Shown in pieces: positions 11,872 through 43,191 of a stretch of DNA of 64,000 nt (position 1 is the stretch's first letter; each line of letters starts with the position of its first letter). A program made the translations under genes and the position numbers. The stretch is from Lachnospiraceae bacterium (lineage in GTDB: Bacteria; Bacillota; Clostridia; Lachnospirales; Lachnospiraceae): contig JAFRSU010000068.1 in assembly GCA_017427415.1 (NCBI GenBank), forward strand, positions 1 to 64,000. The letters are read 5' to 3'. The notes under the pieces were generated by a model, which saw only the letters and a list, made by a program, of their open reading frames with translations, did no database searches and had not been told where the DNA came from.

Positions 11872-12047
11872 GAGATAATAATACGGATTGCTCCGCTACC
11901 GCTCTCGCAATCCTAAACACACCTCAAATCTCGTGCTTTGCTTCGCAAATCACTTCTTTTCGGTGTGTTTTATCGGTCAGCCATTGTAAAATTTCTTTGC
12001 AAGCGAGCTTGCACGAAATTTTTAATGGCCTCCCTCATTATTATCTC
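11872..12047. mobile_element. 176-bp MITE-like element with nested hairpins
   Basis: Terminal inverted repeats GAGATAATAAT (11872-11882 against 12037-12047) bracket three further hairpins: GGATTG...CAATCC (11885-11912), AAACACACC...GGTGTGTTT (11915-11970) and a long arm CCATT...AATGG with AAATTTC/GAAATTT (11981-12028). No reading frame of note lies inside. The right terminus supplies the stop codon of the neighbouring rod gene. The shape fits a miniature transposable element or a strongly folded intergenic RNA. No transposase is present. Confidence 0.6.
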
Positions 12048-17530: not shown

Positions 17531-18451
17531 TTATGGTTCATACTTGCCCCAATCGTCCCCAAAAATCTCTAGGATATTTTCTAAATGCTTCTTTATCTCA
17601 GAATCTGTTTCATCAGTATTACAGGATATGAACCTAATGTATTCTCCCCACCCCGGAATAGCATACAGTATCTGTTTTCCATACTCAAACTCCATATCCT
17701 CAAATGCATACTTTTCATATATGTCCTTAAAATCATTATAAAAATGCGACATTTTGAAGGCATCATGTATACATTTTTGACATTCTTCAAAAGCCTTACG
17801 TCCTATTCCTTTTACCGGTTCATACTCACTAAAATGTTCTTTCAGAAATAAATAAAGACCTTTTACTGTATTTAGCTTCATTTCAGAATCTGTAATATCA
17901 TAAAATCTTTTATCTCCGTTTACATCAATAAAGTATCCCAAATACGAAACCATACTATCTGTTTTTGTCGCATAACACATTATATACATTACCTCTTCTA
18001 CAAGATAGTATCTTTCAAAAGTATATGTCATATCTTCTTTTATAGTATATGTATCTATCCAGGTATTAGCATTCTTATCGGTAGAGGTATTATAGGGATC
18101 AGTCCATTTTATTCTTACTTTTCCCGGTTTTAAGATTTCAAAATACCATGTAACCTCATAAGGTCCTCCCCATAGTCCTCCTTCTTCTTTCCGGTTTTTG
18201 AACGATATTATTCCCTCATCCAACAGTTCAAACTCATGATATCCATTATGTGGTTGAGGTTCGCTAAATGATATTACTATAGCATTTTTTCTTAATTCTG
18301 CTTCTTTCTTAGCTTCGTCTATTAAAGCATCAGTAAACCAATCAATACCAGATCCAACTTCCTCAATATTTTTACGCATCTTAAAAAACCATAAACTGAA
18401 AAGGAAACAAATAACAATAAATATCGCACATGCAATGATTATCTTCTTCAT
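17531..18451 (-). CDS. Membrane-anchored protein with a chagasin-like (I42-type) domain, orphan paralogue of 37967-38362
   Basis: 306 residues from the ATG at 18451, which has GGAG 5 nt before it; an ATG 30 bases upstream is less likely. A membrane helix occupies about 3-24. Residues about 55-150 match the small protein next to the 1521-residue protease-like gene: NGYHEFELLDEGIISF, then YEVTWYFEILKPGKVRIKWT and WIDTYTI. This pattern (a Gly-Tyr turn, a W-x-F strand, a Pro-Gly turn) resembles I42 inhibitors of papain-like cysteine peptidases. The C-terminal half (about 150-306) is not recognised. More AT-rich than leuS and cvfB beside it, suggesting transfer. The inhibitor role is inference. 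Confidence 0.6.
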   Translation of the reverse strand: MKKIIIACAIFIVICFLFSLWFFKMRKNIEEVGSGIDWFTDALIDEAKKEAELRKNAIVISFSEPQPHNGYHEFELLDEGIISFKNRKEEGGLWGGPYEVTWYFEILKPGKVRIKWTDPYNTSTDKNANTWIDTYTIKEDMTYTFERYYLVEEVMYIMCYATKTDSMVSYLGYFIDVNGDKRFYDITDSEMKLNTVKGLYLFLKEHFSEYEPVKGIGRKAFEECQKCIHDAFKMSHFYNDFKDIYEKYAFEDMEFEYGKQILYAIPGWGEYIRFISCNTDETDSEIKKHLENILEIFGDDWGKYEP

Positions 18452-37966: not shown

Positions 37967-38362
37967 TTAATCTATAACCTGTGTTTCGAGTGAATATGAA
38001 TAGTCTTTATATATTGTATATGTGTCAATCCACCCTTTTGCTTGGTCTAGCTCCAAAGAATCGTCTTGAGTTGTCCATTTAATTCTAACTATTCCTGGAG
38101 ATAGTATCCTAAAAAACCAAGTTATATTATAACCTTCTTGCCAAATCACCTTTTCTTTCTTTATTTCTTTTAATTCAATTATCCCCTTGTCTAAAATTTC
38201 ATAATTATAGCTTGGTCTAGTTGGTTTTTCATACAAATTGACTACTATTTCTTCAGAATCGTTTTTAACAGAAGAGAATTTAAACACTTTAAACATAATC
38301 AAAAAAAAGGACAAACAAAGAATAGCCATTATAACAAAAAATATTATAAATATAAACTTACG
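37967..38362 (-). CDS. Membrane-anchored chagasin-like (I42-type) protein beside the 1521-residue protease-like gene
   Basis: 131 residues from a GTG at 38362 with AGAGGG 7 nt upstream; an ATG at 38386 that overlaps the preceding stop as ATGA is the alternative. A membrane helix fills about 3-25, so the rest faces outward. The ectodomain reads EKPTRPSYNYEILDKGIIEL, then YNITWFFRILSPGIVRIKWT and GWIDTYTI. This follows the plan of chagasin/I42 inhibitors (a PT-x-GY-like loop, a W-x-F strand, a Pro-Gly turn, a final strand), which block papain-like cysteine peptidases. It is clearly related to the 306-residue protein at 17531-18451. Position suggests inhibition of, or immunity to, the C39/papain-like domain upstream. 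Inference, not shown. Confidence 0.6.
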   Translation of the reverse strand, partial: RKFIFIIFFVIMAILCLSFFLIMFKVFKFSSVKNDSEEIVVNLYEKPTRPSYNYEILDKGIIELKEIKKEKVIWQEGYNITWFFRILSPGIVRIKWTTQDDSLELDQAKGWIDTYTIYKDYSYSLETQVID

Positions 38363-38382
38363 CACAAAAACACCCTCTTTAG

Positions 38383-41300
38383 TCATTTTCTATCAAGATA
38401 CATAATAGTATGTCTTGAGTTTACAAAAAAACTCAATAAATTTGAAACATCTAAATGTCCGCCAATTCCAAATACTTCATCAGCATATGCCTTTGCTTCC
38501 CAGCATTCCTGTAAGTCAATTTTTATCAGTCTACTCCAAGAGGAACAGTATACAAAAGTTTTCTTTAATATTTTGTCTTGTTCAATTTTAACAATATTAA
38601 CATTATGCAATCCAACACTACCGGTTCTGTTAGATGACGGAATAATATACTTATAATTAGTTTTTCCTACTATATGAAGTAGCACCGGAAAGTTTTTTCT
38701 TAAGGACGAACATATTTTCGACTCTATATCTGTATAATTATAATTTTGACTGTCACAAGTAAAAATGAAATTCGAAATATTTTTATCTTCTAAATAAGAA
38801 TTAAGATTTCTGGCAATAGTTGTAGGTACCACCCCCCAAGTACCAGATTTCTTGGTTATCGCATCAGATATAGTAATTCCATAATATTCTGATATAATCT
38901 TATCATTTATTATCATATGTAACAAACTAATAACAGTACTTTCTACATCCATAAGATTGACATAGTTTTTCTCTAACCAACGAACATAATCATTATATTC
39001 ATTAAAGCTTATTTGCTCTTTAGAAGTATCAACCGGGGTCAATTGAAGATTTTTAAAATGTCTATTGTATTTTTGTAAATAAAGTAAGTAATCGGCAGCT
39101 GCAATCACCCCACATCCATTAGACAGTTGCTTGCTTTGCAGATCATCTATTCCATCAATAGGATTCTTACTATAAAACCACTCTTGATTTCCACCATACA
39201 TATCATTATCTAAATTAATCCTGGCTCCAGTTTTGGGGTCATGTACGTATTCTGCAGATGTATCAATAGAAACATACTTATCAAAATCCAATAATTGCAC
39301 TATTCTAACATCGCTGTTAAAACCATCAGAATAATAAAGCCTTGCTTCATCATAATCTGAATACCCATCATTGTCAAAATCATCACAAAGTGGGTGACTT
39401 CTGACATTATATGAGTTAAAACTCAAAAGCATTGTATTCTCAAAATAACTAATTCTGACATTATCTTCATCAATTACGCCTCTAAAGATTTGTCTGTCCA
39501 TACCCATTTCCAAGCCATCGTCAAGCCCGTCACCATCTGTGTCAGAATTGTATGGATCAGTATAAACTATAGTTCCATCAGGGAGGATCATCCCTGTTAA
39601 TTCTGTACAGTCCGGAATCCCATCACCATCTGAATCCTTTGTATCAGCCACTCCTAAAGCCATTGTCAGTATCATGCTGATAGCATCATCAAAATCACTT
39701 GGTTTTTCAACAAAATACACTTCCCCACCGGTATCCCTTATATTACGCATCAGAGCACCTCTGGTAACCGAATCCAAAGAAGGTCCTACATAAATATAAT
39801 ATAATTCAATACCGTCATCTTTGAAGCTTTTTATTTTATTGAACTGTGTCAACTTTTCGTCTGAAACAAGTATAAGCTTTTTCTTATTCTGAGAAACATT
39901 ATCTACAGAGAAAAAATTATCATGAAGAGATCTGCGCATAAAGTCATAATCGCATGTTCCTTCCTCTGCCTTTATCTTATATGATTTTTCCAAAAAAGAA
40001 TTCTTATTTGCGTCAAATGTACTGTTTTCTACCTTATATCTCCATACTGTCGTCCTATTATCATTCGTCGTTGGAATCGAGTGTTCGCCTTCTTCTTCGC
40101 TTCTGTATATCTCCATTAACCCTATAGAGATTTCCGGTCCAAACAAGTCGATGTTTTCACCGATAGCTGCGATAATTTTTGCCATTTTCTCTGAATCAGT
40201 TTTATAACATGCCTGTCCCGGATTGAATAAGAACATTATTTCATAATTCGGATATTCAGATGCAAGCTCATTTCTTATAGAATCGAGAGCCGATTTAACC
40301 ATTCCTTCATTACTTATTGTATAAAATTTGCCACCACAGTCTTCGATACTCTCTGTAATATTTGTCAGAAGAACGCCATCTATTTCATTGCCGGTATATA
40401 GCTGATATATGCATATCCCTGATTCTTTTAATTCATTTACCAATTCCTGCCTCTGTTGGGTCTGATCGGCTATAAGATATGAGTTAGATACCCATATCAC
40501 AACCTTATTATCTTTTGTCTCTGTCGAACAATTTTGAAAAAATGATTTCATCCCCTCTAGTTCCTGCATTATGGTCGCATACTGATCCCGTGGCTGTATT
40601 TTATCCAAAAAATCTCTCAAGGATGCATACGATTTTGTAAAACTCAGGAATCTTTGATGTGAAGAGTACTTCTTACCATCCGTATATGTTATACTCTCTT
40701 CTGTATCATCAACTTCCACTTGGTATCCGAATGCTGAACTTAAACCTATTTCATCGTCTTCCAATTTTGCCCTTGCTATTCGGTTAAACCCATTTATTAC
40801 AAGAGAAGTATTATTCTTAAAATAATCTCTACCCACATCTATTGCTACCTGTATATCAATATGTGGATCGTCAATTCCAAGAGTAGAACGGATTTGTTTT
40901 CCTTCGGACGATTTATTAAACAAATCCAATATCAAACTTTTTAGAGCTATCATTCTGATTGAAAAATGATCTGCCGGACAGGTTATGGTATTAGCTTCGG
41001 TATCAATAATTGCATCTTCCAATATTACAAAATGCTGATGCTCCTCATCATACCAGAGCATACAAAGATCGTTTTCATCAACATCTCCCAATTTATCCTC
41101 ATAGTATTCAAAGGTTATCACAGCATTTTCATATTCTTTTTCTACGGAAATATCAAAAGGAACACCTACCCTAGCACTGAATGTAGAAGAGAAAACATGT
41201 CTTCCGAACATATTTTCTATATATACGCTGTCCTCCACATCCCCTGCTATATCGAGATCAACTTTGACACTCTTTATGGCGCCAAAAGATTCAGGTATAA

Positions 41301-42948
41301 CATATTCTCCTTTAAAAAGGGGTATAGTTTCTCCTACTCTATTACATAGATCATCATATTCATATCCTAGATCATCCGTATATAAGGCAACATTCTGCCT
41401 TATTTTTTCTTCACCATCAATTATACCATTTCCATCAGTATCCGGATTCAGGGGATTGAAATCATGCTCAAGCTCAAATTTATCTTTGAGTCCATCTCCA
41501 TCGGTATCTGATAAATATGCGCTTGTATTATAAACACTTATCTCATCACTGTCCGTTAATCCATCTTGATCGAAATCCTTATCACTTTCAAAATCAGAGT
41601 CAGGAACTTTGGGATCCATGCCATTGGTCAGCTCTATAGAATCCGGTATCCCGTCTCCGTCAGTATCAGGATTATCCGGATTAGTTCCTATGCCCAGTTC
41701 AATATATAATGGTAGCCCATCTCCATCAGTATCAGAATATAATTCTTCCAATGTATAATCCGGTATTTCTGTCGGAACCGGAGTATCTGTTACGGGTGGT
41801 GCTTCCGTTATCGTAGGAGTGATTTCATAAGTCTGGTTTTCAGTTGGTGTCACATTTGGTGTTATCGTAGGTTCTTCCGTTATAACGACAGAAGGTGTAC
41901 CCGAAATCATTTCAGTCGGAGTTATTTCTTCGGTGGGAGTTACTGCTTCTGTGGGCGTAATTTCATCCGTTGGTGTTATAACATCTGTAATTGTTGGTTC
42001 AGGGGTGATTGTTTCTGTAGGTGTTTCCGTAACAGTTACTCTAGGCTCATCTGTAACGGTAGGCACAGGGGTTAAAGCCTCTGTAACAGTAGATGCGGGA
42101 TCCCCATTCTCATTAATACGGATATCTGTCATAAAGGTATCTATAACTGTTCCGGTCACAGGTACTCCATAGGTTCCGTTTGCTGTAAAGCCTATGTATA
42201 TCTGCTCTCCGGGCTTTATCTCAGAATTATAGTTTCTATTTTTTATTATATAGTGATTACCCTGTCTTTCTATAAGATCAGCTGTATGGAAATCTATTAC
42301 ATCGATATCGGTTGTAAATTCCAAGCTCCAATCCTCAATTACAGTCTCAGATATGTTTCTAAGAGTAAAAACCCCGTTGTAATTATAATTTGTTTCCCCA
42401 TATATTAACGCGCTGAAAACATAATCAACACCCGGTACATCTACCTCTTTCTGTGCCATGTTATAAGTATCAGGCAGTACAAAAGAGCTGTATTTTGCCG
42501 GTATGCTCAAAGACATTCCTAATTCTATCTGTGCCCCAATGGGTATATCTTTATTATGGCGGTCATTCTTTACGGTATAACGGAATAAATCAGTGCCGTC
42601 ACCGGATAAAAAGCTTTCTTTATCAATAATTACTGCATTCCATATGTTTGTTATATCACATCCCATAGTAAAAGTCAGTGCCCAGTTATCTATAACTTCT
42701 GCACCGGTATTTCTGATTACTAACCTTGCATTGCACGCTCCCTGCCAGGCATCTGTGATCATAATCTCTACGCCATATCCTGTCCCCTCATAGTTATATA
42801 TAAGTCCTGGATATATCGTATCATTCGAAACAGGCTCATCAGCTGAAACCGAAACCCCGGCAGGCAGCAATCCTATTATCAGACTTAAAACAAGCAGAAT
42901 CGCCATTAAACGGTTTTGATACATTTTTTTCTTTGCTGTTTTTCTCAT
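38383..42948 (-). CDS. Large secreted multidomain protein: CBM2-like modules, calcium repeats, vWA-like domains, C39/papain-like cysteine peptidase
   Basis: 1521 residues. Signal peptide about 1-36. Two CBM2-like beta-sandwiches (about 45-165 and 172-283, each with an IxNTG or LRNIS strand and WxLxF core). A Pro/Thr stalk (about 285-395). Thrombospondin-3/EF-like calcium repeats (DTDGDG pattern, about 405-515, again 1103-1145 and 1188-1200). Two vWA-like regions (about 698-900 and 903-1095) that lack a canonical DxSxS metal site. The C-terminus (about 1265-1521) resembles C39/papain-like cysteine peptidases: SNGCGVIAAADYLLYL with C1279, then VGLHNVNIVKI with H1448. The third-residue region reads VYCSSW, without the usual Asp/Asn. 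No sortase motif. Preceded by a c-di-GMP-I riboswitch, followed by the I42-like gene. Confidence 0.85.
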   Translation of the reverse strand: MRKTAKKKMYQNRLMAILLVLSLIIGLLPAGVSVSADEPVSNDTIYPGLIYNYEGTGYGVEIMITDAWQGACNARLVIRNTGAEVIDNWALTFTMGCDITNIWNAVIIDKESFLSGDGTDLFRYTVKNDRHNKDIPIGAQIELGMSLSIPAKYSSFVLPDTYNMAQKEVDVPGVDYVFSALIYGETNYNYNGVFTLRNISETVIEDWSLEFTTDIDVIDFHTADLIERQGNHYIIKNRNYNSEIKPGEQIYIGFTANGTYGVPVTGTVIDTFMTDIRINENGDPASTVTEALTPVPTVTDEPRVTVTETPTETITPEPTITDVITPTDEITPTEAVTPTEEITPTEMISGTPSVVITEEPTITPNVTPTENQTYEITPTITEAPPVTDTPVPTEIPDYTLEELYSDTDGDGLPLYIELGIGTNPDNPDTDGDGIPDSIELTNGMDPKVPDSDFESDKDFDQDGLTDSDEISVYNTSAYLSDTDGDGLKDKFELEHDFNPLNPDTDGNGIIDGEEKIRQNVALYTDDLGYEYDDLCNRVGETIPLFKGEYVIPESFGAIKSVKVDLDIAGDVEDSVYIENMFGRHVFSSTFSARVGVPFDISVEKEYENAVITFEYYEDKLGDVDENDLCMLWYDEEHQHFVILEDAIIDTEANTITCPADHFSIRMIALKSLILDLFNKSSEGKQIRSTLGIDDPHIDIQVAIDVGRDYFKNNTSLVINGFNRIARAKLEDDEIGLSSAFGYQVEVDDTEESITYTDGKKYSSHQRFLSFTKSYASLRDFLDKIQPRDQYATIMQELEGMKSFFQNCSTETKDNKVVIWVSNSYLIADQTQQRQELVNELKESGICIYQLYTGNEIDGVLLTNITESIEDCGGKFYTISNEGMVKSALDSIRNELASEYPNYEIMFLFNPGQACYKTDSEKMAKIIAAIGENIDLFGPEISIGLMEIYRSEEEGEHSIPTTNDNRTTVWRYKVENSTFDANKNSFLEKSYKIKAEEGTCDYDFMRRSLHDNFFSVDNVSQNKKKLILVSDEKLTQFNKIKSFKDDGIELYYIYVGPSLDSVTRGALMRNIRDTGGEVYFVEKPSDFDDAISMILTMALGVADTKDSDGDGIPDCTELTGMILPDGTIVYTDPYNSDTDGDGLDDGLEMGMDRQIFRGVIDEDNVRISYFENTMLLSFNSYNVRSHPLCDDFDNDGYSDYDEARLYYSDGFNSDVRIVQLLDFDKYVSIDTSAEYVHDPKTGARINLDNDMYGGNQEWFYSKNPIDGIDDLQSKQLSNGCGVIAAADYLLYLQKYNRHFKNLQLTPVDTSKEQISFNEYNDYVRWLEKNYVNLMDVESTVISLLHMIINDKIISEYYGITISDAITKKSGTWGVVPTTIARNLNSYLEDKNISNFIFTCDSQNYNYTDIESKICSSLRKNFPVLLHIVGKTNYKYIIPSSNRTGSVGLHNVNIVKIEQDKILKKTFVYCSSWSRLIKIDLQECWEAKAYADEVFGIGGHLDVSNLLSFFVNSRHTIMYLDRK

Positions 42949-43013
42949 ACTCTTCTTCCTTTCATTTTCTTAAAACCAGTTCTTTGCCATCATTATATAA
43001 ACATACTGCATAA

Positions 43014-43046
43014 CTAAAAAATGCCACAACAAATAAATGCTGCAGC
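43014..43046 (-). terminator. Candidate switchable terminator after the GEMM aptamer
   Basis: GCTGCA pairs with TGTGGC (two G-U pairs) and is followed by ATTTTTT on the minus strand. Its 5' arm is also the 3' strand of the aptamer closing stem, so ligand-bound aptamer and terminator would exclude each other: an ON switch. Confidence 0.55.
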
Positions 43047-43148
43047 CGAACTATCAGTTTCAATATGTTTATTGTTAGGAGTTCTTGAACATATGCCACT
43101 GACTTCTAACTTTGCGTCCCAAGGTCACCCTTGGTTTGCCCCACCGCT
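43041..43148 (-). promoter_or_regulatory. c-di-GMP-I (GEMM) riboswitch
   Basis: Minus strand reads GGGGCAAACC, a CCAAGG-GTGA-CCTTGG hairpin with a GNRA loop, then GGGACGCAAAG exactly as in the Vibrio Vc2 aptamer. A second, longer stem follows (TCAGT...ACTGA, ATATGTT...AACATAT), then GTTCGGCTGC. These are the invariant parts of the GEMM-I aptamer. It sits in the leader of the 1521-residue secreted protein, whose ATG is about 90 bases further on. Confidence 0.92.
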
Positions 43149-43191
43149 ATTATCTCAAAATCATCCACTAAAGTCAAGATAATTCTCTTGA
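43149..43191 (-). promoter_or_regulatory. Promoter of the riboswitch-protease unit with an inverted repeat at its -35
   Basis: TTGACT (plus 43172-43177), 17 bp, GATAAT (43149-43154) on the minus strand; transcription would start at or next to the aptamer. An inverted repeat TCAAGA-N6-TCTTGA (43174-43191) overlaps the -35, between this promoter and the divergent ald promoter. Confidence 0.7.

Follow-up and report, generated by a model that had tools for sequence, protein, structure and literature searches.

A candidate c-di-GMP riboswitch-controlled polymorphic toxin-immunity pair with an I42-like partner in a Lachnospiraceae genome

The locus described here lies in a 64,000-nucleotide stretch of a Lachnospiraceae bacterium genome (assembly GCA_017427415.1, contig JAFRSU010000068.1, positions 1 to 64,000; hereafter the window), where a cyclic di-GMP (c-di-GMP) riboswitch precedes the genes of a large exported protein and a small membrane protein. 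An earlier reading of the letters alone (the original prediction) had aligned a promoter, a GEMM-I riboswitch, a large gene and an overlapping small gene on one strand, and all four are found there, on the minus strand of positions 37967-43177. The large gene (38383..42948) encodes a 1521-amino-acid (aa) candidate polymorphic toxin and is joined by an ATGA overlap to the small partner gene (37967..38386). The bacterium lives in the gut, probably in the rumen. A congener, represented by a metagenome-assembled genome from water-buffalo rumen, encodes a large protein 51-56% identical to that of the window, and a frameshift near the 5' end splits its gene in the assembly.

The leader begins with a sigma-70-type promoter, read from the sequence (43149..43177, minus strand; -35 TTGACT at 43177-43172, 17-bp spacer, -10 GATAAT at 43154-43149). 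Between this promoter and the start codon, the covariance model places a c-di-GMP-I (GEMM-I) riboswitch aptamer (43038..43150; Rfam RF01051, 43.3 bits, with a gathering score of 35 bits), in agreement with the original prediction. An intrinsic terminator, GCUGCAGCA-UUUAUU-UGUUGUGGC-A-U6, occupies 43016..43046 (folded hairpin, -12.5 kcal/mol), and a ribosome-binding site lies between it and the 1521-codon gene. Folding puts the P1 strands of the aptamer at about 43147-43143 and 43046-43042, the latter sharing GCUGC with the 5' strand of the terminator. The leader folds at -37.5 kcal/mol with the terminator versus -35.9 kcal/mol with P1 forced. Because GCUGC is shared and the energy gap is small enough for a ligand to reverse, c-di-GMP is predicted to cause read-through, that is, to act on an ON switch. 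At high c-di-GMP, the liganded aptamer would keep the 3' strand of P1 paired, so that this strand does not start the terminator, and transcription would pass. The congener leader keeps the TTGACT-17-GATAAT promoter and carries two substitutions in the terminator hairpin that preserve every pair. It scores as no riboswitch, most of the aptamer being gone as judged from the sequence identity of the remnant, and this gap may be a real loss or a metagenome assembly fault.

The large protein has the build of a secreted, modular surface protein. A signal peptide is suggested by the sequence pattern at residues 1 to about 36 (42841..42948) and is followed by a first CBM2 module at residues 60-154 (42487..42771; PF00553, E 5.8e-20, matching two stretches of the protein) and a second at about residues 170-270. 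A Pro/Thr linker leads into TSP3 repeats of the calcium-binding type at residues about 404-520 (41389..41739); the bacterial TSP3 family PF18884 (E 4.5e-12) matches six stretches across the protein. Two vWA-like segments, missed by the original prediction, span residues about 695-1100 (39649..40866) and are assigned by homology with proteins of loci L089 and L070, where Pfam sees VWA; no intact metal ion-dependent adhesion site (MIDAS) motif was found in them. Further TSP3 repeats follow at about residues 1103-1215, and residues 1248-1521 (38386..39207) form a C-terminal C39/papain-like domain, placed by family alignment and homology. Its key residues are Q1255 (39186-39184), C1279 (39114-39112) and H1448 (38607-38605). 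The exported 1521-residue protein with CBM2-like and calcium-binding modules, and the Cys and His named in the original prediction, are borne out.

Successive profile searches found the C-terminal domain in 32 of 391 Clostridia genomes, and the window's own genome holds a second, stand-alone copy (L078). In an alignment of 38 members, all 37 in which the site is present have the Cys, all 38 have the His, and 36 of 37 have the Gln of YGGNQ. Pfam Peptidase_C39_2 is matched by 9 of 33 family members (best E 9.7e-6), and in the PDB a 33-member family profile matches streptopain entries best (E 0.004); a 7-member domain profile returned only noise from the PDB. These sequence comparisons support a clan CA papain/C39-like family and a candidate cysteine hydrolase. 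Scans of both window proteins with Pfam and NCBIfam gave no match for the peptidase domain or the partner domain, and neither the genome contig scans nor a viral contig scan returned a relative of the peptidase domain.

This domain travels between delivery systems. One C-terminal domain is found on an LXG head of the type VII secretion system (T7SS; L073, PF04740 at 30.2 bits with a cut-off of 26.5), on an extracellular contractile injection system (eCIS)-core head (L071, PF13699, E 4.4e-10), and on CBM2-TSP3-vWA heads (the window, the congener, L069, L070 and L079), as expected of a polymorphic toxin. A further locus, L072, is flanked by genes that we read as T7SS-like. Immunity-type genes accompany the long carriers: of the 13 that could be tested, 12 have a small transmembrane (TM) or lipoprotein gene next downstream, compared with 2 of 23 stand-alone copies. 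The rule, applied by hand to homologues that are not independent, gives a Fisher P of 9e-7; a carrier lying at the end of a contig and a gene that is cut were left out. These small neighbours are mutually dissimilar in sequence and occur in tandem at L023, L024, L072 and apparently L077.

Conversely, the same delivery head carries swapped tails, as at the window, L118, L089 and L119. The chassis profile finds a second CBM2, vWA and TSP3 protein with another tail in the window's own genome (L118:3334-6876), behind which lies an overlapping small gene whose product has no TM segment (C32:3334-7400). In the leader of this locus, a c-di-GMP-I match stays below threshold at 31.2 bits and is incomplete: it continues directly into the region of the signal peptide, and no start codon stands out clearly. 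In a genome of another family (G139), the L089 chassis bears a third tail and an overlapping TM protein behind an intact c-di-GMP-I riboswitch (52.7 bits). Further tails are found on chassis-like proteins L119-L125; one of these tails is a class 3 lipase, and the gene that follows this carrier encodes a small membrane protein. No c-di-GMP riboswitch was found at chassis loci outside the order. Since the tails of L118 and L089 match no Pfam or NCBIfam family, their toxin nature is suggested by context. A HIKKH stretch of L118 presumably resembles EndoU/BECR nucleases, and the TM-less small gene there would fit a cytoplasmic target. In the congener, the small gene is followed by fragments of another exported TSP3 protein, one that has neither vWA nor a tail (L019:1215-2747); a 539-aa protein of genome G003 (L090:5886-7502) is similar.

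The small partner is a candidate immunity protein of 139 aa, with a TM segment at about residues 9-37 and an I42-like ectodomain at about residues 44-136. The overlap and the membrane segment are as first described; the length was then given as 131 residues, which fits a later start than the ATG. A congener protein 43-48% identical to it is encoded in the same position, four bases behind the homologous large gene, so the window frame does not represent a chance open reading frame. This congener is the one other species having both genes, and they are adjacent there too. It was also the sole relative returned by a genome contig scan with the small protein. The window holds an orphan full-length paralogue (17531..18451, minus strand; 43% identity, E 2.5e-19), and another congener, in which nothing matches the large gene, carries two tandem relatives. 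The orphan and tandem copies indicate that the partner family is not bound to one peptidase gene. Immunity genes are usually not tied to a single toxin gene.

The ectodomain had been proposed to follow the plan of I42 inhibitors of papain-like peptidases, and its predicted fold does so. The ectodomain of the congener protein, modelled without templates from three sequences and with no known I42 sequence in the alignment, has an all-beta region mostly at predicted local distance difference test (pLDDT) values of 65-90. Searched with Foldseek against 350,542 PDB chains, its top match is the I42 inhibitor EhICP2 (probability 1.00, E 0.019), and chagasin entries come next (probability up to 0.96). 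By sequence, phmmer of the small protein against the PDB gave chance matches only. Two full-length relatives match PF09394 (I42) at E 0.013 and 0.018 (16.2 and 15.7 bits), both below the curated cut-off of 27.2 bits, and the window protein itself has no match. The partner as an I42-like protein in predicted fold, while not an I42 member by the curated test, is moderately supported. Two lipoprotein-like proteins (L028:1492-2061 and L029:950-1525) match the partner family in its C-terminal half alone, the part that the window protein does not have. Elsewhere in the window's own genome, a rhodanese-like domain is fused to an I42 domain just at the Pfam cut-off (C34:3368-3571, locus L139:3032-3967).

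We consider that this locus probably encodes a riboswitch-controlled polymorphic toxin-immunity pair in which the I42-like protein is a tethered immunity protein. The toxin-immunity organisation is proposed because the C-terminal module is mobile and also ends LXG and eCIS effectors, because the small neighbours differ between carriers, and because the tails are swapped. The large protein would leave the cell via Sec, with its CBM2, TSP3 and vWA-like modules serving as a reusable delivery and attachment chassis that may hold it near fibre or cells. The papain-like tail would act as a swappable toxin that hits an extracytoplasmic target of competitors, possibly cell wall or membrane proteins. 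Outside the membrane, the tethered I42-like ectodomain would bind and block toxin domains arriving from siblings or encountered during the cell's own export, shielding producers and kin.

Several observations weigh against this interpretation. At the third catalytic position, the alignment reads a variable SSWG or SSWS with no Asn or Asp, and a residue elsewhere could serve as the third catalytic residue. Taken alone, the window domain matches no peptidase family, and its AlphaFold model, a check proposed with the original prediction, reached a pLDDT of 30 from a 2-row alignment; because of these two results, its assignment as a peptidase rests on homology, and the C39/papain-like call first made for it holds at the level of the family. 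On the side of the partner, the Foldseek E-values lie at 0.02-0.1. The canonical I42 loops of inhibitors of clan CA cysteine peptidases are NPTTG, GXGG and RPW (PMC2607524); here NPTTG is replaced by SPEAG, QPHNG or KPTRP and GXGG by WGNG, WGGP or WQEG, and the RPW loop is gone. Comparing the profile of the small family with that of 5 I42 sequences, both of them shallow, gave no significant match. The window partner, moreover, has no C-terminal half. Its relatives are about 268-306 aa long (280 aa in the congener), it aligns to the first half only of the congener protein, and no remnant of the missing half was found downstream in any frame. The original prediction had not noticed that the protein is short for its family, and the window partner may be decayed. 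Finally, one long carrier, with an eCIS core, has no small neighbour, and intact riboswitches are found at two chassis loci only, the congener leader and the second own-genome leader being incomplete.

In the original prediction, the locus encoded a surface protease that comes with its own inhibitor, paralleling the protease and adhesin logic of other clostridia. The large protein would then be a surface cysteine peptidase for attachment, nutrition or fibre release, its tethered chagasin-like inhibitor would guard the cell's own surface proteins, and no antagonism would be involved. The CBM2 modules, the rumen origin of the congener and the I42-like fold of the partner fit such a role, as does the fact that adhesins and surface proteases of Bacillota are usually under c-di-GMP control (PMC6200980). 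Against this role, the domain also forms the end of LXG and eCIS-core effectors, with small membrane neighbours that are unrelated on those other carriers; it is one of several tails swapped on a single chassis, and partner copies also stand in tandem or as orphans. We therefore regard this explanation as rather unlikely, although it is the strongest of the competitors, and the locus does not support the protease-inhibitor framing in which it was first cast.

Less likely still is a non-toxic enzymatic role for the C-terminal domain, in processing or cross-linking (autoprocessing, anchoring, or an amidase or transglutaminase-like activity), with a chaperone or regulator as its partner. Such roles are known among papain-fold domains, a releasing-peptidase function has been suggested for some papain-like domains of polymorphic toxins (PMC3482391), and both the unusual third catalytic residue and the many stand-alone copies without signal peptide and partner would suit them. 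The domain nevertheless sits at the extreme C-terminus, the usual place of a toxin, and the small neighbour is lost in the stand-alone copies, not in the long carriers. Decay of the locus, with a large protein perhaps still made and a truncated remnant for a partner, so that the pair no longer works, would account for a partner at half the length of its relatives, for the incomplete leaders at two related loci and for the frameshifted congener gene. With a 1521-codon frame still open, promoter, aptamer and terminator intact, catalytic residues conserved and a partner that stops close to a domain boundary, we hold this to be very improbable.

Polymorphic toxins with C39-like tails are already known. 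In the Tox-PLC39 and Tox-PL systems (Zhang et al., 2012; PMC3482391), as here, a C39/papain-like domain ends multidomain exported proteins at their extreme C-terminus, several delivery systems are used, tails are swapped and an immunity-type gene lies downstream. Unlike here, that survey gives no immunity family for Tox-PLC39 and mentions neither thrombospondin/vWA carriers nor chagasin, and riboswitch control is not described for these systems. The closest tested precedent for an extracytoplasmic toxin with a tethered immunity ectodomain is TelC-TipC of Streptococcus intermedius, whose toxin TelC is a lipid II phosphatase of the T7SS (PMC6193138). There, the action of the toxin outside the membrane was tested, whereas here it is a prediction; both systems have an immunity protein with an N-terminal TM segment and an extracytoplasmic domain, inhibitory in TipC and presumed so here, and multiple immunity paralogues. 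They differ in that the present locus combines Sec export, a papain-like tail and an I42-like partner, while TipC has another fold. Compared with chagasin and other I42 proteins (PMC2607524), the partner shares a predicted all-beta Ig-like fold and a papain-like partnered enzyme, but its loops are eroded, it has a TM anchor and its full-length relatives carry an extra C-terminal domain. A c-di-GMP aptamer before the gene of a large exported surface protein is familiar from Bacillota (PMC6200980, PMC7423583), where the products are adhesins and virulence factors rather than members of a toxin-immunity organisation.

Neither this chassis nor an I42-like immunity protein was found described in the open-licence literature, and no paper found there joins c-di-GMP riboswitches with polymorphic toxins or reports such control of a locus like this one, in line with the novelty claimed for the combination at the outset. 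A broader and more speculative proposal, which we put forward tentatively and with less than even confidence, is that rumen and gut Clostridia hold a class of Sec-exported CBM2-TSP3-vWA polymorphic toxins that c-di-GMP riboswitches turn on, thereby arming attached cells against competitors, with papain-like toxins neutralised by membrane-tethered immunity proteins of chagasin fold. If so, a riboswitch would couple antagonism directly to a second messenger associated with attached growth, Gram-positive gut bacteria would have a Sec-exported fibre-binding toxin chassis besides the T7SS, and I42 would become a candidate immunity fold for papain-like toxin tails, a role not previously described.

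Other RNA elements were seen in the same genome. A c-di-GMP-I riboswitch of 66.8 bits (C24:26968-27054, plus strand, locus L143) stands upstream of a short peptide whose leader is of the double-glycine type, along with a membrane protein and a C39 ABC transporter, in what looks like a bacteriocin-like locus. Three of the eight c-di-GMP-I matches in the genome (the window, the partial C32 leader and L143) are at antagonism-like loci. The window also contains a Clostridiales-1 RNA (11876-12043, minus strand; 86.8 bits).
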